Notes under the pieces: generated by a model
The model's database searches: none
Told to the model about the DNA's origin: nothing
The model's input: the letters and a program-made list of their open reading frames with translations, nothing else
Translations under genes and position numbers: made by a program
From: a virus
Length of the DNA: 27,959 nt
IMG/VR virus record: IMGVR_UViG_3300047564_001330
Span: 1 to 27,959 of that record
Direction: 5' to 3' (one strand)
Shown here: in pieces, positions 1 through 14,349 of the stretch
Layout: each line of letters begins with the position of its first letter
Position numbering within the stretch: position 1 is the stretch's first letter

Positions 1-704
1 CCCGCACCAGCGCCAGCGATAGCCGCACGGAGCAACGTATCTTTTAAGCTGCGATCATTAGCGGCACTTGCAACTGCGGAGCCAGCCGCTGCCGGAAGAA
101 TTGTTCCAAGAAAGCCAGCGCCGGGGATTAGAGCGGAGCTAAGAATAGGGAGGCCAACATCCATGATAGGGCCAAAGATTTTGCCGAGCAGGGTGCGGTC
201 TGAGTTATACTTGTTTGTCCCGATTACCTGATCGCCACCGGGGCCAGTCTGAACAAGCTGCCAGTCGGCTTCACGGCCAAGTTCGGTGTTCAGGCGGTTC
301 GCCTGTGTCGCAAGATCAAGCAATCCCTGCTGGCCCGTCCCTGTGCCAAGAACCTGACCAGACTTAGGGCTGACAAGGCGGTAGGAGGCGTTCGCATCCG
401 GCGTAAGATACCGAATGTCCTGTGCCTTTTCCTTTGTATCGTAATAGCCGGAAGTGCCTTGGAAGTTTACCGGGATCGTTCCGAAGGCCTCAAAGTATTC
501 TGCGGGATTTTCAAAGGCATACTGCCTTTCAGGGTTAGCCATACCATAGGCCAGCGAGCGATCCATAAACGCCATGCGCTTTGCGTCTTCAAGCACACGA
601 TTAAGGCGCGCATCATCGAGATAATTAACGTCAACGCCCTTGAGCAACTCAGGGGCCATCGACTGGATTTGCGAGATAATAGCGTTGCGTGGATTAGTCG
701 CCAT
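1..704 (-). CDS. Virion protein, N-terminal part (truncated by window edge)
   Basis: Open from an ATG at 704 to the window edge, giving 234 residues of an unfinished protein. The start overlaps the portal stop codon by one base (TAATG), so the two are translationally coupled. The N-terminal 150 residues are soluble and mixed in composition. From about residue 185 there is a long Gly/Ala/Leu/Ile stretch (for example GKIFGPIMDVGLPILSSAL) that looks membrane-active or like an internal or scaffold virion segment. Position directly after the portal suggests a structural or assembly role, but I do not recognise the family. Confidence 0.8.
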   Translation of the reverse strand, partial: MATNPRNAIISQIQSMAPELLKGVDVNYLDDARLNRVLEDAKRMAFMDRSLAYGMANPERQYAFENPAEYFEAFGTIPVNFQGTSGYYDTKEKAQDIRYLTPDANASYRLVSPKSGQVLGTGTGQQGLLDLATQANRLNTELGREADWQLVQTGPGGDQVIGTNKYNSDRTLLGKIFGPIMDVGLPILSSALIPGAGFLGTILPAAAGSAVASAANDRSLKDTLLRAAIAGAGA

Positions 705-3070
705 TACATCATCCCCTGTTCTTGGGCTGCGATCTGGGCCATCTGTTCGGCGGCCATCTGGTCAGCGAAGGCTTGATCCTGCGCTGCTTGTGCGGATTGC
801 GCAGCTTGAACCGACTGAGCCTGTGCGGCCATTACAGCGCGTTCGACTTCAGCCTGTTGGCGGATCAGTTCACGATCACGCTGCATCAGCGCTTCGATGT
901 TAGCCGTGTTGACCTGAGTGCCATACTTGGCTTCGATCTCAGCGGACTTCAGGATAACCTCTGCATCCAACTTATCGCGCTCACGATCATCCTTCAGAAG
1001 CATATCCTGACGCTGCAATTCAAGTTCAGCGGCCTTCTTCTGAATGTCAGCCTGAATGCTCTGCGCCTGAACCTGTGCCAAAATCTCTTCTGGGGTCGGC
1101 TGCGGAGGCGGAGGAGCGGGCGGCTGGAAGCCCTGCGGGTTCGTGAAGAACTGCGTAACGTCCTTGAAGCCAGCAACAGCCAGCATCTGCTCAAGCGTGT
1201 TGTAGTAGCCTTCCAGATTGACCAGCGGGTTGTTCATCGGGCCGAGTTGCTGCAACAGCATTTCCTGCTTCTGAGCAATGACGTTCAGGAAGCCCATCTT
1301 CTGCTGATCGGAGCCAGTGCCAAGGGCCACGTTGACCACAACGTCCATGTTTGCGTCCCAAACGCGGGGATCGATAGGCACAAACTCATTGCGGAGGCGA
1401 ACCAGACGCGGCTTGTCCTGATGCTTCACCAGCAACTTGAGCGCCTTCTCCATCATCGACTTGAAGCCAGTCTCGGCAAAGATGCGGCAGATTAGTTCAA
1501 TATGCTGCTGAGATGCCGTCACAGTCGCGTTAACAGCCGTTGCAGTGGAATTAGACAAGGCGTTGGGGTCAAGGCCAGCAGAAGCCTTCGTGATGCCTGT
1601 GCGGCTTTCCTTTACCGCGTCCATGTATTCCAACATCGGGAACGCGGCCTGAGACACGTTCGGCGTAACGAACGGCTGCACAGCGCCCTGAGACTTCATG
1701 CGGATGATGCCACCGACTTCGGTGTTCAGAACGTCCTCAATCGACACCTGACCTTCGACAACACCCATGCGGGGATAGATCGACTGGGCCAAGCTATCGA
1801 GCGTGTTACGCATAATCGACGACTTGATGCGCTGAATGTCCATCACAACGTCAGCAACGGACATACCGAAGAACGTGTGCGGCTCAGGATCGGGGCAGAA
1901 GTCAAAGAAGGGATGTGCGTCAACCGCTTCTTCGTGCAGCAACTTATACGCAGTTCCGCCAACGCAGACCTTGCGCAATTCAGCAATGCCGTCCCCGTCT
2001 ACGTCAATGTAGAGATAACCCTCGATGTAGAGAACCTTGCGGCTGGCAACGTCCGTGCGCCCAGCACCAAGGATGGTAGCCTGAGGGTTGCGGTCAAACG
2101 CTTCCTGATTGCCTTCGAAGTCGTCCTGCGTCTCAAAGCCAAGCTGCTCAACCTCGTCCTGCTCATAGCCCATAGCTACAAGCTCGGAGACAGTCATATA
2201 CCGACGATGGCCGATAAAGTCGAAGTCGTTGATGGACTTGGCGCGGCGGTCAATCAGTAGTTCTTCGGGAGGAAGCGCGGCAATATTAAGTCGGCCTTCT
2301 TTCGTCCGGCGAACAACCTTGGCACTGTAGGTCGGCACTTCGATAACAGTGACGATCCCTTCAGGGGTTGCCATTTCCTGCTCTGCGTATTCGACTTCAA
2401 CTTCTTGAAGTTCAACATCAGGGTCAGACATGAGAACAAGATAGCCGTTCTCATCAATGCCTTCGATCTCATAGGTTTCAACCTTCTCAGTCTCATCCCA
2501 CCAAATCTTGCCAAAGCCGTTCTTGCGGATGAGAGCATCCTTGAACATCGCATAGGCGTGGATGAAGAGGTTGTTGTCCCGCGTCAGGCAGTAATTGACG
2601 TAATCCGTGGCCTGATCGGCGATTTGGATGTCCTCAGCCCGATTGGGGGCATACTCAACAACGCGGGACGAGCCGAAGAATACACGCATAATCGAAGGAA
2701 GAATAGCCTGAACAGTATCTCGAACGTCCATTGAGACGACCTGAGAGCGGCCTTCCTCTTCGTTGCCGAAGGGTTCACCCTTGTAATACTGGCCAGCCAG
2801 AGCGCGCTCGGGAGAGATAACGTCATCAATGTATGACTCAGCGTCATCGATCTCACCGCGGACGATGTTCTGGATTTCCTCCTCGGACATGGCTTCGTTC
2901 TCAGGCATTTCTACCTCGAACTCGCCGTCCTCAATGGAGACTTCCATGCCTTCAGACATATCGCTGCTTTCGCCTTCGCTGTTTGCGTTAGGCACACCAG
3001 TGTCCTGATAGCCGTTTGAGGCGTTAGCCACTTCAGCCTTCGAGGGCTTGCTGTTCTTGCGATATGCCAT
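704..3070 (-). CDS. Portal protein (P22-like)
   Basis: A 788-residue protein placed two small genes after the large terminase. Length and layout fit P22-type portals (about 725 residues), the dodecameric channel through which DNA enters and leaves the capsid. An acidic N-terminal tail (residues 1-60) is followed by a helical region with the text SPERALAGQYYKGEPFGNEE, then the body with DVRDTVQAILPSIMRVFF near residue 115. The last 130 residues are Gln/Ala-rich helix, as expected for the barrel and crown of a long portal. The ATG at 3070 follows the DUF6496-like gene by nine bases. The family call rests on recognised sequence style plus synteny. Confidence 0.88.
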   Translation of the reverse strand: MAYRKNSKPSKAEVANASNGYQDTGVPNANSEGESSDMSEGMEVSIEDGEFEVEMPENEAMSEEEIQNIVRGEIDDAESYIDDVISPERALAGQYYKGEPFGNEEEGRSQVVSMDVRDTVQAILPSIMRVFFGSSRVVEYAPNRAEDIQIADQATDYVNYCLTRDNNLFIHAYAMFKDALIRKNGFGKIWWDETEKVETYEIEGIDENGYLVLMSDPDVELQEVEVEYAEQEMATPEGIVTVIEVPTYSAKVVRRTKEGRLNIAALPPEELLIDRRAKSINDFDFIGHRRYMTVSELVAMGYEQDEVEQLGFETQDDFEGNQEAFDRNPQATILGAGRTDVASRKVLYIEGYLYIDVDGDGIAELRKVCVGGTAYKLLHEEAVDAHPFFDFCPDPEPHTFFGMSVADVVMDIQRIKSSIMRNTLDSLAQSIYPRMGVVEGQVSIEDVLNTEVGGIIRMKSQGAVQPFVTPNVSQAAFPMLEYMDAVKESRTGITKASAGLDPNALSNSTATAVNATVTASQQHIELICRIFAETGFKSMMEKALKLLVKHQDKPRLVRLRNEFVPIDPRVWDANMDVVVNVALGTGSDQQKMGFLNVIAQKQEMLLQQLGPMNNPLVNLEGYYNTLEQMLAVAGFKDVTQFFTNPQGFQPPAPPPPQPTPEEILAQVQAQSIQADIQKKAAELELQRQDMLLKDDRERDKLDAEVILKSAEIEAKYGTQVNTANIEALMQRDRELIRQQAEVERAVMAAQAQSVQAAQSAQAAQDQAFADQMAAEQMAQIAAQEQGMM

Positions 3071-3256: not shown

Positions 3257-3555
3257 TTAGACTTCCCCTTGTTGCGAGCGGAGATGGCTTTAGCTTTCGA
3301 TCTCGCGTCTGCTTTAGATGACGCACCCCACGCTTGCAGAGATAGTAGTAGGCGGGTCGGTTCGCCTTTCGCATTACGCTCCGGCCCCGGCATATTGCCC
3401 ATACGCGCTAGAAATGATGCCCTCCGAGGATTGTCACCAGATTTAACAGGCGGCTTCAGGTTCATGCCTTCTGCCTTGGCAGACGCACGGCCCTTAGCGT
3501 TTAGGCCACCAGACGGGGACTTCCCTTCTTTACGCTGCCAAGCAGGAGTTTTCAT
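3253..3555 (-). CDS. Small basic DUF6321-like protein
   Basis: A 100-residue basic protein starting MKTPAWQRKEGKSPSGGLNAK, with LKPPVKSGDNPRRASFLARM in the middle and a Lys/Arg/Ala-rich end. This text is typical of DUF6321 proteins seen near phage packaging genes. A TTG one codon upstream keeps the frame open, but the ATG at 3555 overlaps the terminase TGA by one base (TGATG) and is the natural start. No catalytic motif is visible. It probably binds DNA or virion components; function unknown. Confidence 0.8.
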   Translation of the reverse strand: MKTPAWQRKEGKSPSGGLNAKGRASAKAEGMNLKPPVKSGDNPRRASFLARMGNMPGPERNAKGEPTRLLLSLQAWGASSKADARSKAKAISARNKGKSK

Positions 3556-4865
3556 CAAACAATACCACGAATGTTGCGTTTAATTGGTGCTGTATAGCCC
3601 ATTTGCTCTCTATGCGCTATGGCAAAGTATCTCGCCGCGTCTGCGTAGTGCGAAGTCCAGTCGTGATACGGGTGCGACTGAAACTCTTGCCTCTTATCGT
3701 CATAGATGCGGCGATACATTCGCAGGGCCTCGATCCCGGTCTTGCAGTTGTCCTTATCGAACCACGAGCGCGGCAGGAGCAACCTAAGCGCCTGTATGCC
3801 GTCCATGATGTCCATGCGCGGCGCAATCTCAATGTTGCGTAGACCAAGTTCCTGCAAAACCTCAAGGCGGCTCTTCCCTGTTCCCAGTTCTCGCACCCTA
3901 ACGTCATGCGGAAGATAGTGATTGCCCCAGATATAGGGCTTGTCCTGTAATTGCTTTACATACCAGTCAAGGCCAGCGCCTTCACCCTTCAGGCAATCGA
4001 TCCAACGTGTCTCACCGCCGTGCGCCTGAACAAACCAGATAACAGTCGAGTCAGACATACCCAAGTCCCACGCGGTATGCACTGGGAGGGCCGGATCGTA
4101 AGGCACTGACGTAATGCGGCCAGCCTGATCCATCTCGCTAAACTCTTTGCCGTAATAGGCTCCACGGATAGCCGCTTCAAAGCTGCACTCGTATTCCTGT
4201 GCAAACTCTTCCTCGCTCATCATCCGTCGAGCGTCATTCAGTTCCTTTTGGTCAAGCAGCCCGGTGTCAGTGGCCTTCAGCATCAGGCGCGACCAGTCTT
4301 CGTCGTTCTCTGCGTTCTGCCACAGGTCGTAAAATGTATTCTTACCCTTCGGTGTTCCGATAAAGATCGCCCAGCCTTTGCGGTCAGACAATGCGGGGCG
4401 GATCACCTGCGTCCAGACAGTAGGGTTCATATCCCCAAACTCATCGAGAACGCAGCCATCAAGATAGATACCACGGAGGCGGTCTGGGTTGTCAGCGCCG
4501 TAGATACGGATACGAGCGTTGTTGTTAGGCAGCTCTACCCAAAGTTCTGATGCGTTAACCCTGCGCTCCGGGCCGAAGCATTCTGTATGCTCAAGCAGGT
4601 AAGACCAAGCGATGTCCTTGGCTTGGTTTAACTGGGGAGCGATATAGGCGAAGCGAGGGTTGGGTTTAATACAGCAGGACGCTTCCTTGATGATATCATT
4701 GACGCAAGCAACAGTCTTACCAGCGCGTCGATGGGCAACAACAATAGCCCAGCGCGTCTCACGTTCATGCAATGGCATAAACTGGATGCGTGGGCGATAA
4801 TCACACTCTATGTCGGTGAGAGTATCTTCAACCTCTACGGGGGCTTCTACCTCGGGGCTTTCCAC
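3555..4865 (-). CDS. terL: Terminase large subunit
   Basis: A 436-residue packaging motor. The N-terminal ATPase shows a Walker A AHRRAGKT at residues 44-51, a Walker B with catalytic acid VLDE at 139-142, and a coupling-type IGTPKG at 169-174. The C-terminal RNase-H-like nuclease begins near AWDLGMSDS (Asp267) and has further acidic residues in LPHDVRVRE and HDWTSHYADAARY. The start is GTG at 4865, preceded by GGGGAG seven bases upstream and overlapping the small subunit by 19 bases; the first in-frame ATG would cut into the ATPase domain. It works with the preceding small subunit and docks on the portal. Confidence 0.95.
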   Translation of the reverse strand: MESPEVEAPVEVEDTLTDIECDYRPRIQFMPLHERETRWAIVVAHRRAGKTVACVNDIIKEASCCIKPNPRFAYIAPQLNQAKDIAWSYLLEHTECFGPERRVNASELWVELPNNNARIRIYGADNPDRLRGIYLDGCVLDEFGDMNPTVWTQVIRPALSDRKGWAIFIGTPKGKNTFYDLWQNAENDEDWSRLMLKATDTGLLDQKELNDARRMMSEEEFAQEYECSFEAAIRGAYYGKEFSEMDQAGRITSVPYDPALPVHTAWDLGMSDSTVIWFVQAHGGETRWIDCLKGEGAGLDWYVKQLQDKPYIWGNHYLPHDVRVRELGTGKSRLEVLQELGLRNIEIAPRMDIMDGIQALRLLLPRSWFDKDNCKTGIEALRMYRRIYDDKRQEFQSHPYHDWTSHYADAARYFAIAHREQMGYTAPIKRNIRGIV

Positions 4866-7698: not shown

Positions 7699-7820
7699 TT
7701 TACCAACTCCGCCTTGCGGTAGCTGCTGGTGATAACCTTATCGCCCTTCTTCTTTGCGGTGCGCTCGATGACGATAGGCTTTAGCCCCTTGAGGGCGAGA
7801 TAGTCACGATAGCTGGTCAC
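7695..7820 (-). CDS. Small basic protein, 41 residues
   Basis: The GTG at 7820 has GGGAGG seven bases upstream and overlaps the upstream stop by four bases (GTGA), so it is preferred to longer options that read through the neighbouring gene. The product is TSYRDYLALKGLKPIVIERT followed by a lysine-rich stretch and SSYRKAELVK. It may bind nucleic acid; function unknown. Confidence 0.6.
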   Translation of the reverse strand: MTSYRDYLALKGLKPIVIERTAKKKGDKVITSSYRKAELVK

Positions 7821-7915
7821 AGTGCGGCCTCCCATGCAAAAGCGATTGTGGCGCACAGTCCGATTGCGAACGTGCAAGCTGCGGTGAGAATGGTTTCTTT
7901 CCAAGTGGTCTTCAT
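7817..7915 (-). CDS. Tiny membrane peptide, 32 residues
   Basis: Reads MKTTWKETILTAACTFAIGL followed by CATIAFAWEAAL. This is one hydrophobic helix behind a short charged N-terminus. GGGAGA and an AGAAATG-type leader precede the ATG at 7915. The stop overlaps the next start by four bases. It is the second small membrane peptide within 600 bases. Function unknown. Confidence 0.62.
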   Translation of the reverse strand: MKTTWKETILTAACTFAIGLCATIAFAWEAAL

Positions 7916-7927
7916 TTCTAGTCTCCC

Positions 7928-8083
7928 TTACCAAGTATGGTTCTTGATGATGTCGATCAAATCTTCAACGACATCAGCCGCGAACATCCATTCCTTTTTG
8001 CCGTCAAACGAGTAGCGCATGTTAGCTACATCTTCCTGTATCAGCTTGATGACTTCGTTCAGCGATACCTGCTTGTCTTCCAT
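7928..8083 (-). CDS. Hypothetical acidic protein, first gene after a promoter
   Basis: A 51-residue protein starting MEDKQVSLNEVIKLIQEDVA and ending DVVEDLIDIIKNHTW, helical and acidic. Its ATG at 8083 ends a leader that matches the one before the rightward operon at 11701 in 24 of 25 bases. It is therefore probably the first gene of the cluster transcribed from the promoter at 8114-8141. No domain recognised. Confidence 0.7.
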   Translation of the reverse strand: MEDKQVSLNEVIKLIQEDVANMRYSFDGKKEWMFAADVVEDLIDIIKNHTW

Positions 8084-8113
8084 TTCTAAATTCCCTTCGT
8101 TTCTATGCAGCCC

Positions 8114-8141
8114 ATCCTAACGCCTAAAACGCATTGGTCAA
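8114..8141 (-). promoter_or_regulatory. Leftward promoter of the small-gene cluster
   Basis: On the minus strand TTGACC (8141-8136) and TAGGAT (8119-8114) are separated by 16 bases. The element lies in the only real gap of this region, upstream of the gene starting at 8083. It shares spacing, distance to ATG and leader with the promoter at 11643-11670. An AATGCAAT site lies just upstream, at 8148-8155. Confidence 0.65.
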
Positions 8142-8154
8142 TAGCTAAATGCAA

Positions 8155-8325
8155 TTATTTTTCATCTAATATGGTTTTCTGCCACATCACAATATCAAAA
8201 TCCGCTTCAAAGTCCCAAGTCTTCCAGCGCCACTTGGTAGGATCGATGCCTCGCTTGATCTGTCCGTTGCGGAAGATCACATCAACTCTCTCGAAGGGAG
8301 GGGTGCGTCCAGTATTCTTTGGCAT
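8155..8325 (-). CDS. Hypothetical protein, 56 residues
   Basis: From ATG at 8325 the product reads MPKNTGRTPPFERVDVIFRN and continues KWRWKTWDFEADFDIVMW. The PPFERVDVIFRNG opening resembles many small phage proteins that pair a beta strand with a Trp-rich core. The start overlaps the upstream HTH gene by 44 bases and has only a weak ribosome site. GTG at 8280, with GAGAGA upstream and no overlap, is the alternative, giving 41 residues. I favour the ATG because the conserved-looking PPFERV would otherwise be lost. Confidence 0.62.
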   Translation of the reverse strand: MPKNTGRTPPFERVDVIFRNGQIKRGIDPTKWRWKTWDFEADFDIVMWQKTILDEK

Positions 8326-8470
8326 TGCGTCTCACAATATCTATTCGCTCAACTGTTGCCTCGGATAGCCCGTGCTTTTCAGCAACAATTTTTCTCGTTG
8401 CTCCGGGCTTGGCGAGATCGTGATTGATCTGGTTGAGCTGGTTTAAAGTAATTGGCTTACCCCTTGGCAT
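8282..8470 (-). CDS. Small HTH DNA-binding protein
   Basis: A 62-residue protein. After MPRGKPITLNQLNQINHDL comes a helix-turn-helix of resolvase/transposase style: ATRKIVAEKHGLSEATVERI, about residues 24-43. GGAG lies five bases before the ATG at 8470. The small size, with little outside the HTH, suggests a DNA-binding regulator of phage genes. Target unknown. Confidence 0.68.
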   Translation of the reverse strand: MPRGKPITLNQLNQINHDLAKPGATRKIVAEKHGLSEATVERIDIVRRNAKEYWTHPSLRES

Positions 8471-8472
8471 GG

Positions 8473-8664
8473 TTACTCCGTTTCCTGTCTGATCGAGCGC
8501 AGATCGAGGTAATGGCGGCCAGTATCATCCTTTGCGATGACGTAGCGCTTTCCAGACTCCCTAACCCAACTGTTCTGATTGATCGTCGCGCAGTGAGCTT
8601 GCAGCATATCTAGGCCGTAGCGAGCGCCTTGGCCGTTGCTGAAATTGATTTTCTTATCGGTCAT
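8473..8664 (-). CDS. Hypothetical protein, 63 residues
   Basis: Starts MTDKKINFSNGQGARYGLDM at 8664, overlapping the methyltransferase stop by four bases. The text YGLDMLQAHC resembles YGLEMLVAHC in the ORF at 15342-15554; the two may share a fold. The C-terminal half is beta-like (KRYVIAKDDTGRHYLDLR). Function unknown. Confidence 0.68.
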   Translation of the reverse strand: MTDKKINFSNGQGARYGLDMLQAHCATINQNSWVRESGKRYVIAKDDTGRHYLDLRSIRQETE

Positions 8665-9599
8665 AATTCCTCTACCTTCTTAATCCGCTCTCCGATCCAG
8701 CGCATAACTGGGACGGCCATTGAGTTTCCTAATGCTTTGTAACGTGGCCCATCAGGGCAGTCATCTTCTGATTTGTTGCGCCATGGGATACGTGTGAAGT
8801 TGTCTTGAAACCCTTGAAGACGTTCGCATTCGATTGGGGTTATCCTCCTAATCGCAGGCTTTCCATCAATGAAAAATGGAACAGCAAAACCGCTCGCAAT
8901 ATCTGTTACCTCATTCCTATGACCGCCATGAGCAGTTAACGAGTTTATGATTGTTCGTTTATTGGTTGAGCCGAGGCTACAGCCTCCAAATGATGTTTCA
9001 CCATTTCCGTGAAAGTCACCTTTCTTCGCAGAGATCGGCGCAGTATCCCCCGACAAGCTGCCGCGCTGAAAAAGAACCGCTGCGGCACGGGCTGCGCCTC
9101 CAAGATATCCGATAACGAACACACGGCGGCGGCGTTGGGCCACTCCGAAGAACTGAGCGTCAAGCACTCTGTAGGCGAACCCATACCCGAGTTCGACCAA
9201 TCCCCCGAGAATGGAACCAAAGTCCCGTCCTCCATTTGATGACAAGACGCCGGGGACGTTCTCCCAAACCACCCATCTGGCCCGTGTTCTCTGAGCAAGT
9301 CTAAGAAACTCAAGCGCCAAGTTGCCACGATCATCATCCAAGCCTCCTCTGAGGCCAGCGACTGAGAAGGACTGACAAGGGGTTCCTCCGACAAGAAGGT
9401 CAATTGATCCATATTCATCTCCCTTAATTGTAGTGAAGTCCCCATGTAGAGGAACGTCTGGATAGTGGTGCGCCAAGACGGCACGAGGGAATGGCTCAAT
9501 CTCACTAAAGAAAGCTGGCTCCCAGCCTAGCGGATGCCATGCTGCCGTTGCCGCCTCAATCCCCGAGCAGACGCTGCCATAGCGAAAGCTATCGGTCAT
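8661..9599 (-). CDS. DNA (cytosine-5) methyltransferase
   Basis: A 312-residue complete C5 enzyme that transfers a methyl group from S-adenosylmethionine to cytosine in a specific site. Motif I is SVCSGIEAA (residues 9-17), motif IV GGTPCQSFS with catalytic Cys75, motif VI ENVPG (113-117), motif VIII QRRRRVFVIG (155-164), motif IX RRITPIECERLQGF, and motif X LGNSMAVPV (290-298). The target-recognition region, roughly residues 170-245, is short. No restriction endonuclease is adjacent, so it is an orphan enzyme, probably protecting phage DNA or tuning expression. The start overlaps the DUF1376 gene by 11 bases. Confidence 0.94.
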   Translation of the reverse strand: MTDSFRYGSVCSGIEAATAAWHPLGWEPAFFSEIEPFPRAVLAHHYPDVPLHGDFTTIKGDEYGSIDLLVGGTPCQSFSVAGLRGGLDDDRGNLALEFLRLAQRTRARWVVWENVPGVLSSNGGRDFGSILGGLVELGYGFAYRVLDAQFFGVAQRRRRVFVIGYLGGAARAAAVLFQRGSLSGDTAPISAKKGDFHGNGETSFGGCSLGSTNKRTIINSLTAHGGHRNEVTDIASGFAVPFFIDGKPAIRRITPIECERLQGFQDNFTRIPWRNKSEDDCPDGPRYKALGNSMAVPVMRWIGERIKKVEEL

Positions 9600-10281
9600 A
9601 TGATCCCTCCACTAATTTGATAAAGCTCTTCGGTTGAAGCAAGAAGTCGAAGTCAGCCTTCCACCCCCGATCATTTTCACCCCGAAGAAACTTTGAGCGA
9701 TAGATTGCGCCCATCGCCTTTGACCAGTCATCGCTGTCGTATTCAGCTATCCGGGCCTTGATATGCCTTCGTCTGGTTTCCGTAACCTTAGTCACCTTCG
9801 ATAGCCCACATTCCTGTGCCAGATCATTCCAAGCTGAGATAACATCGTCCACTGTCAGGTCATCCCCAGATGACACATCCTCGTTAGAGGATGATATATC
9901 TTGGTTATTGGTTATTGGTTCTTGGTTATTGGTTGGTTGAACGTCCGTTGAACGTCCGTTGAGCCGCCGTTGAGCAGATGCCTTGCCAGCGTTAGACGCT
10001 TTCTCTGATTTTTCGCGGAATTTGGCTATTTCTGCATCACATCTGTCATGTGTCCAGCGGTCATCCTCTCCAATGCAAAAGAAGTCCTGAAGCACCTGCG
10101 TTACCTCTGCAACGCATTCTCTCATACCGATCTGACGAGCGACTTCAGCCTCATCTCCATACACCTCACCATCCTTGAGGTAATATAGATCGAGCAGCCG
10201 TCGATACGCCAAGTCCTCTAGCAGTGAGAGGTGGCGCGTGTGGCTGGCGTAATCGCCAATATTAAATTGAAAATAGTGCAT
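9589..10281 (-). CDS. DUF1376-family replication protein
   Basis: A 230-residue protein starting MHYFQFNIGDYASHTRHLSL, the signature of DUF1376 (YdaU-like) proteins, which often occupy the replication-initiator slot of temperate-type phages. Residues 1-100 form the conserved domain. About 100-135 is a low-complexity linker encoded by tandem repeats. The C-terminal domain ends GWKADFDFLLQPKSFIKLVE, a style seen in replisome organisers. The ATG at 10281 overlaps the upstream TGA by one base and has AGGTG five bases before it; GTG at 10284 is the alternative. Presumably it loads or positions host replication machinery. Confidence 0.82.
   Translation of the reverse strand: MHYFQFNIGDYASHTRHLSLLEDLAYRRLLDLYYLKDGEVYGDEAEVARQIGMRECVAEVTQVLQDFFCIGEDDRWTHDRCDAEIAKFREKSEKASNAGKASAQRRLNGRSTDVQPTNNQEPITNNQDISSSNEDVSSGDDLTVDDVISAWNDLAQECGLSKVTKVTETRRRHIKARIAEYDSDDWSKAMGAIYRSKFLRGENDRGWKADFDFLLQPKSFIKLVEGSYDR
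9901..9969. repeat. Out-of-frame tandem repeats inside the DUF1376 gene
   Basis: The plus strand has four 7-base units TTGGTT(A/A/C/A) at 9901-9928, then partial TTGG units, then three 11-base units (TTGAACGTCCG twice and a degenerate TTGAGCCGCCG) at 9937-9969. They encode the Asn/Gln/Thr linker. Neither unit length is a multiple of three, so loss or gain of one copy would shift the reading frame. Confidence 0.85.
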
Positions 10282-10514
10282 CACGACACCTGCACAGGAA
10301 GTCGTTTATATTCGCCGCACCACATATCAGGAGCAACTGGCGGCCAGTATTTGCAATCAGGGCTAATCATAGGGGATCTTCTGCGACACTCCCCAGCTAA
10401 TACGCCAGTGCCTGATTGATAAAATCTGCAGGTATCGCAGCGTTTAGGGATGTATTCATCAACCTTAACGCCTTGCTCTTTTGGAGCGGAAATTGTAAGA
10501 ACTTTTCGTGTCAC
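10281..10514 (-). CDS. Small Cys-rich zinc-binding-like protein
   Basis: A 77-residue protein with Cys26-x2-Cys29 (KRCDTCRFYQSG), Cys43 in GECRRRSP, Cys54 and Cys66 in DMWCGEYK. This spacing is that of a common small phage Cys4 protein, probably holding one zinc or possibly another metal. It begins with GTG at 10514, with AAGGAAAGG eight bases upstream. It lies between the DnaA-like HTH gene and the DUF1376 gene and may serve replication; unproven. Confidence 0.75.
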   Translation of the reverse strand: MTRKVLTISAPKEQGVKVDEYIPKRCDTCRFYQSGTGVLAGECRRRSPMISPDCKYWPPVAPDMWCGEYKRLPVQVS

Positions 10515-10547
10515 GCGATTTGCCTTTCCTTAGAATCGCTTGGCTTA

Positions 10548-10585
10548 GGCGGGGATGGAAGCTGCTAACTTCCTCCTCGCCCGCC
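10548..10585. terminator. Intergenic hairpin in the replication operon
   Basis: Outer arms GGCGGG and CCCGCC enclose an inner GGAAG-ctgctaa-CTTCC stem. Read on the plus strand it is followed by TTTCTT, terminator-like, but no plus-strand gene precedes it. In the minus transcript it lies in the 85-base gap between the genes ending at 10600 and starting at 10514, where it may be a processing, attenuation or stability element. Confidence 0.45.
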
Positions 10586-10599
10586 TTTCTTAACACAAC

Positions 10600-10959
10600 T
10601 CAATCGTCATTCAAAGCGCCATATTTTGCCTTTGAGCGTTGACGCATTCCCAGATGATACTGGACCGTAGAGATGTCCATATCGAGGTAATTTGCGATCC
10701 GCTGGGCTGACCACTTAAACTCGTGATACATTATTTTCATCAGCTTGCGGCGCGCCTCAACGAACGGGCGATCCCGGCGCTTTGCGAACAAGTCCTCAGT
10801 CGTAAGACCAGAGGAAGAAAGCACCCGGGCAATTGCATCCTGCATCTTCTGGCTGATGAATGACGGCTTTGGCGGAATGGGTTTAGCCACTAGGATTTCA
10901 CGCACTGGCGGCTGCGGGCGGTATTGAACCTCTTGTCGATTATGCTTGATTGTTAACAT
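10600..10959 (-). CDS. DnaA-like helix-turn-helix protein
   Basis: A 119-residue protein. The N-terminal half is Pro/Lys-rich and probably flexible. The C-terminal part contains FVEARRKLMKIMYHEFKWSA and then ANYLDMDISTVQYHLG, an HTH resembling domain IV of DnaA, which recognises origin sequences. The ATG at 10959 has GGAGA about nine bases upstream. Position directly before the DUF1376 protein suggests a role in phage replication or its control. The ATPase domain of DnaA is absent. Confidence 0.75.
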   Translation of the reverse strand: MLTIKHNRQEVQYRPQPPVREILVAKPIPPKPSFISQKMQDAIARVLSSSGLTTEDLFAKRRDRPFVEARRKLMKIMYHEFKWSAQRIANYLDMDISTVQYHLGMRQRSKAKYGALNDD

Positions 10960-10961
10960 TG

Positions 10962-11390
10962 CTAAATATCTCCACTTCTACTATTATTGTCTTGCGCCTT
11001 TTTGGCGTGGCCGGGGCGTTGAGTTACTCCCTTCCTCCGCTCCGGCCTTATTTCCCTTAATTCATGGCTTGGGAATAGCGCTTTAAACAGAGCTTTACGG
11101 ATCGGCCAGTCGCGGCTGTCAACGGCTTTGGAAGAAGGCTTAACGTCCTCGACGATCTCGCGCCCGTTGAGCGTGTATTGAAAATCGGCTAGGTATCCAA
11201 GTCTCCGACCATTGTCGTGCTTGACCTGACGGCCATTGATGACAAACCAGAACTGGGGCCAGACGATGAGATCGTCAATATAACCCCGGCCCTGCATATC
11301 GTGAAGCTCATCGCAGCGCTTGGCCTCAGAGATACTGTCGTGCTTGTGGCCCTCAGCGCAGTAAGCCTTCTTAGCCTTCCACTTCTTCAC
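10962..11390 (-). CDS. DUF1064-like predicted nuclease
   Basis: A 142-residue protein. HDSISEAKRCDELHDMQGRG near the N-terminus carries the FDS-x2-EA-x-R pattern of DUF1064. GYLADFQYTLNGREIVEDVK supplies the acidic/Lys core (YxADF, EDVK) typical of restriction-endonuclease-like phage proteins, which are predicted to act on branched DNA or in DNA processing. It is the second gene of the leftward early operon; its ATG at 11390 overlaps the regulator gene by 20 bases. Confidence 0.8.
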   Translation of the reverse strand: MKKWKAKKAYCAEGHKHDSISEAKRCDELHDMQGRGYIDDLIVWPQFWFVINGRQVKHDNGRRLGYLADFQYTLNGREIVEDVKPSSKAVDSRDWPIRKALFKALFPSHELREIRPERRKGVTQRPGHAKKAQDNNSRSGDI

Positions 11391-11577
11391 TAGCAGCCCT
11401 TTCCTTAATCAACTCATCAAGAGCAATACTAGCTTTATTGAGAGTTGATAAGCGAGGGCTTTTGTTCCTCCAGTTGGTGAAGCTGGTAATAGCGATGCCA
11501 GCCTTCTCTACAATCGCCTTACGGGTAATCCCATGATACGCGGCCTTTGAGAGCAATTCTCGAACTTGAATTTCCAT
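11371..11577 (-). CDS. Small HTH transcriptional regulator
   Basis: A 68-residue protein. GITRKAIVEKAGIAITSFTN (about residues 16-35) is a Cro/CI-type helix-turn-helix. An upstream TTG keeps the frame open, but the ATG at 11577 has AAAGGAGA before it and is preferred. It is divergently transcribed from the recombination operon across a 123-base gap with an inverted repeat, the classical position for an autoregulating repressor that also controls its divergent neighbour. The size is closer to Cro than to CI, and there is no cleavable C-terminal domain. Confidence 0.8.
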   Translation of the reverse strand: MEIQVRELLSKAAYHGITRKAIVEKAGIAITSFTNWRNKSPRLSTLNKASIALDELIKERAASEEVEG

Positions 11578-11621
11578 GATGTCTCCTTTCGACAAACGTC
11601 ACTTAGGTTTAAAAAAAACGC

Positions 11622-11649
11622 ATTGCAATATATTTTTTGCTATTGCATT
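11622..11649. promoter_or_regulatory. Candidate operator: inverted repeat in the divergent control region
   Basis: ATTGCAATA (11622-11630) and TATTGCATT (11641-11649) form an imperfect inverted repeat with a 10-base spacer. The right arm overlaps the -35 of the rightward promoter; the left arm could cover a leftward -35 (TTGCAA, 11623-11628). The related AATGCAATT occurs at 8148-8156 by the second matching promoter. Likely binding site of the adjacent HTH protein. Confidence 0.55.
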
Positions 11650-11670
11650 CCTCAAATCAGGGCTTATGGT
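11643..11670 (+). promoter_or_regulatory. Rightward promoter of the recombination operon
   Basis: TTGCAT (11643-11648) and TATGGT (11665-11670) with a 16-base spacer, followed by a leader with GAAGGGAG ahead of the ATG at 11701. The -10 matches consensus poorly. The exact correspondence in layout with the 8114-8141 promoter is the main support. Confidence 0.62.
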
Positions 11671-11700
11671 GGCCTTGTTAGAAACGAAGGGAGTTTAGAA

Positions 11701-11868
11701 ATGCTTACAGCGGAATACACCAACGGCACATCAAAGATTAGCCCCATGCTCTGGCTTACCAAGCTGGAGAATGGTCGCCGCGAGTATGTGCAGGGCTACT
11801 CAGTCAACAACAAGCGTGAGGCCCGCAAGCTGGCGGCTGACTTCGGCGCTAAGTGCTGGAACTTCTAA
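11701..11868 (+). CDS. Hypothetical protein, first gene of rightward operon
   Basis: A 55-residue basic protein starting MLTAEYTNGTSKISPMLWLT and ending AADFGAKCWNF. The frame is open upstream, but the ATG at 11701 has GAAGGGAG before it and follows the promoter. It looks like a compact beta-beta-alpha unit, with VNNKREARKLAADFG the helix. As the first early gene it may be strongly expressed. Function unknown. Confidence 0.75.
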   Translation: MLTAEYTNGTSKISPMLWLTKLENGRREYVQGYSVNNKREARKLAADFGAKCWNF

Positions 11869-12044
11869 TGACAGACTTTGAGATCATAACCGCCTTGCTG
11901 GACGTTAAGCGCGATCAGCCATATGGCGACACCTGCTCATTCAAGCTGGGCTATCTGATGCAGGTCGTAGCCGAGATTGCCGACAAGCATCCGGCGGTTC
12001 GCTTAGAACTTATTTCACGCATTACAGAGACAAAGGGAAACTGA
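11868..12044 (+). CDS. Hypothetical protein, 58 residues
   Basis: Starts MTDFEIITALLDVKRDQPYG at 11868, overlapping the upstream TAA by one base (TAATG), which implies translational coupling. Helical, with GYLMQVVAEIADKHPAVRLE in the second half. It ends one base before the annealing protein gene. No recognised domain. Confidence 0.72.
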   Translation: MTDFEIITALLDVKRDQPYGDTCSFKLGYLMQVVAEIADKHPAVRLELISRITETKGN

Positions 12045-12045
12045 G

Positions 12046-12609
12046 ATGACAGAGCATAAAACAATCCTAGCGGCACTCGCTGCCGCTCTTCCTGAACTGG
12101 AAAGCGCAAAGAAGAACAAGGCCAATCCTGCGTTTAAATCAAAGTATGCAGACCTTGGCGCAATAATGGAAGCTATTGAGCCGATCCGTAAGCACGGGCT
12201 TTGGTTCCGCCAGTTTTCTCACGATCGTGATGGTGGAAGTGCAGTAGAGACATTTTACATTCATGATACTGGTGAGTTGTCTGCTGGTATTTATTTCGTC
12301 CCGGCAGAAAAGAACAGCGCACATGCGTATGGATCTGCAAACAGCTACGCTCGCCGCTATGGTCTACAGTTGGCGTTCGGTCTTGCGACAGAAGATGACG
12401 ATGGCAACGCCGCATCCGCCAAGCCGACTAACTATAACTCCCAGCGCATTGACCGGGATCAGCTTGAGGTTGTTCAAGACCTAATCATGCAGACGCAGTC
12501 CGACGTTGTCGCAATCTGCAAGAAGCTGAAAGTGAACGGCCTTAACGAGATGACGCAGGAGCAGTTTGATTATGTTGTTGGGGTTCTTGAAAAAAAGAAA
12601 ACTTCGTAA
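12046..12609 (+). CDS. erf: ERF-family single-strand annealing protein
   Basis: A 187-residue recombinase that anneals complementary single strands in phage homologous recombination. Family features in order are KKNKANPAFKSKYADLGAIM (residues about 22-41), RKHGLWFRQFSHD, an IHDTGELSAG strand, and GSANSYARRYGLQLAFGLAT followed by EDDDGN. The C-terminal 50 residues are a variable helical tail. AAGGGAAA precedes the ATG. With the exonuclease two genes downstream it forms a Red-like recombination pair. Confidence 0.92.
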   Translation: MTEHKTILAALAAALPELESAKKNKANPAFKSKYADLGAIMEAIEPIRKHGLWFRQFSHDRDGGSAVETFYIHDTGELSAGIYFVPAEKNSAHAYGSANSYARRYGLQLAFGLATEDDDGNAASAKPTNYNSQRIDRDQLEVVQDLIMQTQSDVVAICKKLKVNGLNEMTQEQFDYVVGVLEKKKTS

Positions 12610-12803: not shown

Positions 12804-13427
12804 ATGGAGCAGGGGACAGAAGAGTGGTTGCTGGCGCGTTGTGGCTCACTGGGGGCAAGCCAGATCAACGAGGCACTAGCGACCACCAAGGGGGGCTGGG
12901 GCGCTTCGCGAGAGAGCCTGAAAAATCGGATCATCGCGGAGCGCCTCACTGGGGTTCCAGTAGAAACCTTTACCAACGCAGCTATGCAATGGGGCAAGGA
13001 TAACGAAGATGCCGCTAGAAAGGCGTATGAGGCCCATACAGGCTCATTCGTTGATGAGATGGGTATCGCTTACCACCCAGTGCTGAAATACACTCACGCA
13101 AGCCCTGACGGCCTTGTTGGGGATGATGGGCTGATCGAGATCAAGTGTCCGAATACAACAACGCATATTGAGACGCTTCGATCCCAGAAGGCCCCGTCGA
13201 AATATATGAAGCAGATGCTTTGGCAGATGAGGTGTATTGATCGGCAGTGGTGCGATTTCGTGTCATTCGATCCGCGCCTTCCAGAGCATCTTAGACTTTT
13301 CGTTGTTCGCGTAGAAAGGGACGATGAGGCCATTGCTGAAATTGAAAAGCAGGTGGCTGAGTTTCTTGGTGAAGTGGAGCGTGACATTGAAGAACTGAAC
13401 AGGAGATTTTCTAATGACGCAGAATGA
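12804..13427 (+). CDS. YqaJ/lambda-exonuclease-type nuclease
   Basis: A 207-residue nuclease of the lambda-exonuclease family. Visible elements are EEWLLARCGSLGAS (residues 6-19), the catalytic SPDG ... LIEIKCP with Asp102, Glu112 and Lys114, and YMKQMLWQM with Gln137/Gln141. Such enzymes resect double-stranded DNA ends so that the annealing protein can load. ATG at 12804 follows AAGGGATAAGGAT. The longer open frame upstream overlaps the previous gene and lacks a ribosome site. Confidence 0.92.
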   Translation: MEQGTEEWLLARCGSLGASQINEALATTKGGWGASRESLKNRIIAERLTGVPVETFTNAAMQWGKDNEDAARKAYEAHTGSFVDEMGIAYHPVLKYTHASPDGLVGDDGLIEIKCPNTTTHIETLRSQKAPSKYMKQMLWQMRCIDRQWCDFVSFDPRLPEHLRLFVVRVERDDEAIAEIEKQVAEFLGEVERDIEELNRRFSNDAE

Positions 13428-13740: not shown

Positions 13741-13966
13741 CGCTATCGAGTGCGCCCACGTTCGTGTCGGAACGGACGGCGGGATGGGTATCAAGCCTTC
13801 AGACAGGTGGTGTATATCGCTCTGCAAAGACTGCCACAATCAGCAGCATATGCAGGGAGAGGAAACTTTCCAGAAGGCGCATGGTATCAATATGAAAAAG
13901 CTGGCAGAGGAGTTTTTCAAAGCCAGCCCTCACCGACACAAGTTAGAAACGAAAGAAGGAGATTAG
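13625..13966 (+). CDS. HNH-like zinc nuclease
   Basis: A 113-residue protein with FACSACG (Cys32, Cys35), IECAHVR (His45) and LCKDCHNQQH (Cys67, Cys70, His71, His75), the beta-beta-alpha metal layout of HNH/DUF968/Ref-like phage proteins. GGGAGAGG lies immediately upstream of the ATG at 13625. Its neighbours (exonuclease, NinB) suggest a role in recombination or repair rather than homing, since there is no split gene nearby. Activity is not certain from motifs alone. Confidence 0.78.
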   Translation: MALPQRIKQKSEKADRGKRSPAHRAWVRGFACSACGRTDAIECAHVRVGTDGGMGIKPSDRWCISLCKDCHNQQHMQGEETFQKAHGINMKKLAEEFFKASPHRHKLETKEGD

Positions 13967-13968
13967 AA

Positions 13969-14349
13969 ATGTCACAAGTCGTTCACCTGCGGGGGCAATA
14001 CCAGCGTGATTTAGCCAAGAGCCTCATCGACAAGGCTCCTGACAACGCAGTGGTAAAGATTAGCCCAGAGAAGCGGAGTGACGACCAGAACGCAAAGATG
14101 TGGGCCATGTTGTCTGACATCAGCCGTGCGAAGCCGGAGGGCCGTCATCATATCCCAGAAGTTTGGAAGTGCATCTTCATGGCCGCTTGTGGCCACGAGG
14201 TTTCATTTGAACACGGGATCGACGGAAAGCCTTTCCCATTAGGCTTCAGTTCATCCCGGCTGACCAAGGCCCAAATGTCAGACCTGATTGAGTGCATATA
14301 CGCCTACGGGGCGAAGCATAACGTAAAATGGAGTGATTACTATGAGTGA
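13969..14349 (+). CDS. ninB: NinB-like recombination protein
   Basis: A 126-residue protein. KRSDDQNAKMWAMLSDISRA (residues about 35-54), HHIPEVWKCIFMAACG and the C-terminal IYAYGAKHNVKW segment follow the NinB (Orf) layout. Lambda Orf binds SSB and single-stranded DNA and substitutes for RecFOR. An SSB gene lies two genes downstream. AGAAGGAGA precedes the ATG at 13969; the leader resembles those at 11701 and 8083. Confidence 0.88.
   Translation: MSQVVHLRGQYQRDLAKSLIDKAPDNAVVKISPEKRSDDQNAKMWAMLSDISRAKPEGRHHIPEVWKCIFMAACGHEVSFEHGIDGKPFPLGFSSSRLTKAQMSDLIECIYAYGAKHNVKWSDYYE

Follow-up and report, generated by a model that had tools for sequence, protein, structure and literature searches.

Why would a phage place nearly the same leader sequence, each copy behind a promoter of its own, in front of two different operons that point in opposite directions? 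We examined this in a virus fragment of 27,959 bp from IMG/VR (here called the window, i.e., the whole stretch of DNA that was analyzed), in which a predicted leftward promoter, PL, faces a cluster of small genes and a predicted rightward promoter, PR, lies between a small repressor-like helix-turn-helix (HTH) gene and an ERF/YqaJ/NinB recombination operon (Table 1). An initial annotation had proposed that the two stretches are matching promoter-leader modules carrying one shared early-expression signal.

Table 1. Positions of promoter elements, leader cassettes and genes in the window
Feature	Position	Strand	Remark
Matched 65-nt stretches, GCTATTG to ATG	8145-8081; 11639-11703	-; +	Aligned
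Portal gene	704-3070	-	On PL strand, beyond the small genes
Terminase gene	3555-4865	-	On PL strand, beyond the small genes
Related start cassette GGGAGACTAGAAATG	7913..7927	-	Promoterless, before 32-aa gene (7817-7915)
First gene behind PL, 51 aa (MEDKQVSLNEV...)	7928..8083	-	Without family match; relatives carry other small genes instead
PL leader/start cassette, 25 nt, TAGAAACGAAGGGAATTTAGAAATG	8081..8105	-	Near-identity to PR copy
PL -10 hexamer TAGGAT	8114..8119	-	Always 16 nt from -35
PL spacer, 16 nt, AATGCGTTTTAGGCGT	8120..8135	-	Unusually conserved, possible operator
Shared 11-mer AAAACGCATTG inside PL	8126..8136		Candidate operator; same strand as 11615 copy
PL -35 hexamer TTGACC	8136..8141	-	TTGAC[CG] in 25/25 PL copies including window
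Gene directly upstream of PL (MPKNTGRTPPFE...)	8155..8325	-	Constant neighbor, used to locate PL in relatives
Small HTH (repressor-like) gene, 68 aa	11371..11577	-	Divergent from PR; HTH assigned by eye; conserved in relatives
Shared 11-mer AAAACGCATTG upstream of PR	11615..11625		Candidate operator
PR -35 hexamer TTGCAT	11643..11648	+	TTGCAT/TTGCAA/TTGACA in 16 PR copies
PR -10 hexamer TATGGT	11665..11670	+	TATGTT/TATTGT/TATTAT in relatives, TAAAAG in L121; 16-nt spacer
PR leader/start cassette, 25 nt, TAGAAACGAAGGGAGTTTAGAAATG	11679..11703	+	Near-identity to PL copy
First gene of PR operon, 55 aa	11701..11868	+	No assigned function
ERF-family ssDNA-annealing protein	12046..12609	+	PF04404, E 8.9e-23
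YqaJ-family recombination exonuclease	12804..13427	+	PF09588, E 4.2e-26
Third cassette copy	13944..13971	+	Promoterless; spans end of HNH-like gene and start of NinB; kept in L009, L085, L123
NinB gene	13969-14349	+	

Alignment of the two stretches revealed 45 identities in 65 positions overall and 24 in the last 25, and together they form an inverted repeat (45 nt, 80%) that no other in the window exceeds in length or quality. With up to three mismatches, the 23-nt core of the leader cassette occurs in the window at these two sites only, compared to a chance expectation of 0.00 in 100 shuffles. Alignment and shuffles thus confirmed two modules of equal length with near-identical leaders, and the initially assigned hexamers hold for both (TTGACC-16-TAGGAT on the minus and TTGCAT-16-TATGGT on the plus strand). 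In the 40 nt 5' of the cassette, the PL and PR copies match at 21 of 40 positions, a level of agreement with the PR copy that is found for 16 of the 55,838 40-mers of the window, the PR copy itself counted. A scan for lone promoter motifs yielded 19 sites in 20 kb with 16.2 expected; PL was unremarkable in it and PR was not listed. Since single promoter matches are this unremarkable, relatives had to decide, and it is from them that support for the promoters comes.

Relatives, likewise from IMG/VR, were collected by searches that used the ERF and HTH proteins, the upstream neighbor gene of PL, and DNA patterns as queries, and about two dozen of them share the twin-promoter arrangement. PL was detected in 24 of the 26 loci encoding its upstream gene, in 22 cases directly behind that gene; it follows an inserted stretch in L113 and an inserted gene resembling an HNH endonuclease in L095, and it is absent from L119 and L120, the most distant of the 26 loci. 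The HNH-endonuclease-like gene of L095 (3774-4330) separates PL from its constant upstream neighbor, and promoter and cassette survive just behind it. PR was present in all 15 readable regions adjoining the HTH gene as well as in the window, with the copy of L123 read in a second register, TTGCAA-16-TATTAT. Many of the relatives are closely related to one another, which leaves no more than about 8 independent lineages for PR and about 13 for PL. Pairwise identities of the PR elements were calculated with one copy per group. At the DNA level, the only match of window positions 7900 to 11900 to isolated phages was in the cytosine methyltransferase region; the methyltransferase gene (8661-9599) is up to 79.5% identical in DNA sequence to that of Caulobacter phage DMCA. 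For terminase and portal, identity to isolates, e.g., Sinorhizobium phage phiM5 and Pelagibacter phages, is at most about 50%, and the relatives of the portal include phages of rhizobia and marine alphaproteobacteria.

The search of relatives for the same layout, as suggested by the initial annotation, recovered PL and PR in nearly all of those examined, usually with 58 nt between -35 hexamer and ATG. The spacer measures 16 nt in every copy of either promoter. The distance from -35 to ATG ranges from 56 to 60 nt at PR and from 56 to 61 nt at PL, with a mode of 58 for both and a single PL case of 85 nt with an inserted gene; the exactly equal length of the two modules is therefore usual, not strict. 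The GCTATTG anchor is partly coincidence, as relatives mostly carry GGTATTG at PL and CCTATTG or AGTATTG at PR, and a -10 of the form T-A-x-G-x-T describes the window copies (TAGGAT and TATGGT), but its G is not conserved in relatives (TAGGAT, TAAGAT, TAAAGT, TAAAGA, or TATGAT at PL).

At PR, mean pairwise identity is 0.85 for the -35 hexamer, 0.39 for the spacer, and 0.70 for the -10 hexamer. Because the hexamers stay while the spacer diverges, PR appears to be a sigma-70-type promoter under selection, with hexamers near TTGACA and TATAAT, a distance within 16 to 18 nt, and hexamers kept more strictly than the sequence between them; the host RNA polymerase would presumably transcribe from it. 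Some relatives come closer to the consensus, i.e., L122 with a perfect TTGACA (TTGCAT in others) and L123 with TATTAT. Against the sigma-70 reading, several -10 boxes are noncanonical (TAAAGA, TAAAAG). In most relatives a GTCAA, which reads TTGAC leftward, is located upstream of PR in the region of window positions 11617 to 11640, and it was lost from the window; this element could serve as -35 for the HTH gene.

The spacer of PL behaves differently from that of PR. Its mean pairwise identity of 0.68 is level with that of the PL -10 hexamer (0.67), and a promoter alone does not explain such strong conservation. Because it is conserved too, the PL spacer seems to carry something more, possibly an operator; in L095, PL exists with a different spacer, TTGACGCACCCATCCAGACCTGTATGAT. 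Each promoter has one copy of the 11-mer AAAACGCATTG, a possible common operator, and the window contains no further copy. The shorter AACGCATT occurs three times, at 8128-8135 and 11617-11624 in the promoters and at 10111 within a coding region. PL and PR might constitute one regulon, with an operator that includes AACGCATT at both promoters and a phage regulator, perhaps the divergent HTH protein, bound to it. We regard this as a tentative and rather doubtful proposal, and one that would add to the explanation preferred below, not replace it. Besides the restriction of the 11-mer to the promoters and a PL spacer conserved beyond need, it is favored by the upstream region of PR, which in the window matches the PL core better than all 2,000 shuffles, and by the greater likeness of PR and PL sites from one phage relative to sites from different phages (P = 0.003, and 0.009 with the relatives thinned), although the latter test still partly carries phylogeny. 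The site is, however, no evident palindrome, the clade L126-L131 has the same AACGCATT with the helix FTKWKTRYPRL in place of FTNWRNKSPRL in the window, and L095/L122 keeps both promoters without AACGCATT at either. Across relatives, the recognition-helix residues of the HTH protein and the AACGCATT site showed no clean covariation, and the HTH-like protein had no match in Pfam or PHROG at a threshold of 0.001.

As originally described, one copy precedes the recombination operon and the other a cluster of small genes; the operon encodes ERF, the YqaJ exonuclease, and NinB, and the small genes have no family match. By analogy, the PR operon would be expressed early. For the small cluster behind PL, early expression is no more than plausible, because the same strand continues from there into the terminase and portal genes. 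PL could instead be active late or constitutively and serve the packaging and structural arm. This is unlikely, given that PL shares promoter type and leader with the promoter of the recombination operon and that small genes are repeatedly exchanged right behind it.

The predicted transcripts, which from a sigma-70-type promoter would start about 7 nt after the -10 hexamer (near 8107 on the minus and 11677 on the plus strand), begin about where the identity begins, so that the 25 nt of identity, start codon included, cover approximately all of the 5' leader. They contain a Shine-Dalgarno core, GAAGGGAG or the variants GAAGAGGA and GAAGGAG. Promoterless copies of the cassette were also found in relatives (L003 at 8619, L009 at 2146 and 7701, L085 at 7434, and L123 at 1980), and L103 keeps the PL promoter without a cassette. 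Because promoterless copies precede internal genes and PL can do without the cassette, we interpret the latter as a reusable translation-start element. Of the single shared module proposed at the outset, the two promoters and their common leader, kept despite replacement of downstream genes, remain, but promoter and leader are separable; and a leader that recurs at promoterless gene starts is better read as such a cassette than as a timing signal. Within a phage, leaders are no more alike than between phages, and we therefore rejected the idea that one module was recently duplicated or spread by gene conversion. In the PL leaders of L099, L101, L104, and L106, both TAGAAA repeats flanking the cassette read TAGACA, as if changing together. 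Bacterial genomes contained only five exact matches to the cassette, from Bacteroidales/Paludibacteraceae and one Clostridia MAG and all without a promoter, which we read as chance or composition.

Position directly 3' of both predicted start sites, together with the many kilobases over which the PL strand extends to late genes, would also suit a nut- or put-like antitermination or processing signal at the start of both operons. We consider this very improbable and rejected it: the leaders are unstructured, folding no better than shuffles (z-scores +0.3 to +1.1) and without a stem-loop or recognizable boxA/boxB, and the same cassette also adjoins internal genes, in every case with its end at the start codon. 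A leader peptide or attenuator coupled to the main gene is less credible still, since the in-frame ATG...TAG of both window copies (MGCIETKGI* and MVALLETKGV*), which ends 2 nt before the start codon, has an ATG that falls within the -10 box or borders on it and would thus be off the predicted transcript, and its reading frame is broken by indels in L100, L101, L121, and L122 and lacks an ATG or GTG there in L107-L112.

Behind PL, the promoter is fixed and its cargo changes, with small genes swapped or inserted directly downstream. The first genes fall into eight families that are unlinked at an E value of 1e-3, and nine first-gene proteins, drawn from families other than that of L141/L144, had no significant match in Pfam and PHROGs. 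Two of the first-gene types, MQMHFTAVRGS... and MSRIYGDPGD... (found in L108 and also in L114, L116, and L117), are homologous and share a GGENPY motif; by eye they resemble small proteins of the ribosome-modulation-factor type, but Pfam gave no match. L103 differs from L098 by an inserted 92-aa gene that is flanked by TCATT on either side and lies precisely at the junction of the promoter with the cassette of the former first gene. In L100 compared to L101, a 45-aa gene was inserted at this position, and two cassette-like starts now follow each other in tandem. From these two insertions only, we infer recombination through the cassette junction. A more far-reaching idea, speculative and in our judgment improbable as a whole, is that PL and cassette act as a docking port, i.e., an immediate-early promoter with interchangeable host-takeover or anti-defense genes, whose 25-nt cassette would double as ribosome-loading signal and as short homology for the phage ERF/YqaJ recombinases joining new genes.

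Taken together, the locus probably comprises two sigma-70-like promoters, each combined with a leader that is a standard translation-start cassette of the phage, with PL serving as a fixed port. PR would fire rightward, starting next to the repressor-like gene, toward the recombination operon, and PL leftward into small accessory genes, each followed by an unstructured leader of roughly 24 nt. The promoter would set transcription and the cassette, reused at other gene starts, would set ribosome loading; translation is presumably strong. At PL, whole small genes are swapped or inserted directly behind the fixed port. The arrangement is real, conserved, and ordinary in principle, and the interesting twist is the exchangeable gene port. 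PL thereby offers a sequence handle for small unannotated phage genes that are likely expressed from a signal of the recombination-operon type, and the locus illustrates, in a simple natural example, how a promoter and a ribosome-binding site evolve as pieces that can be separated and reused.

A search of the literature for twin promoters with the same leader found nothing on point, but several known systems are comparable in part. In phage lambda, the early promoters pL and pR fire in opposite directions, one of them beside the repressor gene, and CI and Cro bind OL and OR. The locus described here resembles this in opposite firing and in one promoter that lies beside a repressor-like gene and before recombination/replication functions. 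In contrast to lambda, PL is set apart by 3.5 kb and lies on the same strand as the repressor-replication genes, downstream of them, the shared operators are candidates only, and no nut sites were recognized. Lambdoid phages also carry boundary (linker) sequences between exchangeable genes, similar to the short repeat found here at junctions where whole genes are exchanged; here, however, the junction doubles as a translation-start cassette.

The SAS/ESAS of Cluster K mycobacteriophages are short asymmetric repeats with a Shine-Dalgarno core, conserved beyond 16S pairing, that are located just before the start codons of small unknown genes, often of different families, and sometimes overlap the stop codon of the preceding gene; they occur in 11 to 19 copies, are associated with 17-bp inverted repeats, and have the consensus GGGATAGGAGCCC (PMC3203893). 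The phage cassette has in common with them that it is a short asymmetric repeat around a Shine-Dalgarno core, is conserved beyond 16S pairing, and directly precedes the start codons of small genes from different families, at times overlapping the stop codon of the gene before. Its sequence, GAAGGGANNTTAGAAATG, does not fit the SAS consensus, about 3 to 4 copies are present per genome as opposed to 11 to 19, two of them lie directly 3' of conserved promoters, and 17-bp inverted repeats are absent.

In archaeal viruses, conserved early regulatory sequences, namely TATA/BRE promoters, precede anti-defense genes (PMC11065993). Those promoters stand before many single genes, whereas the promoter here is of bacterial type and occupies two sites, and with no known anti-defense homolog behind PL a role in defense is putative. 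Common to both is a conserved promoter before small, fast-changing genes without assigned function (PMC11065993). For archaeal viruses, such promoters have already been used as bait (PMC11065993), and PL, with eight unlinked families behind it already, is usable in the same way for new accessory genes in uncultivated phages.
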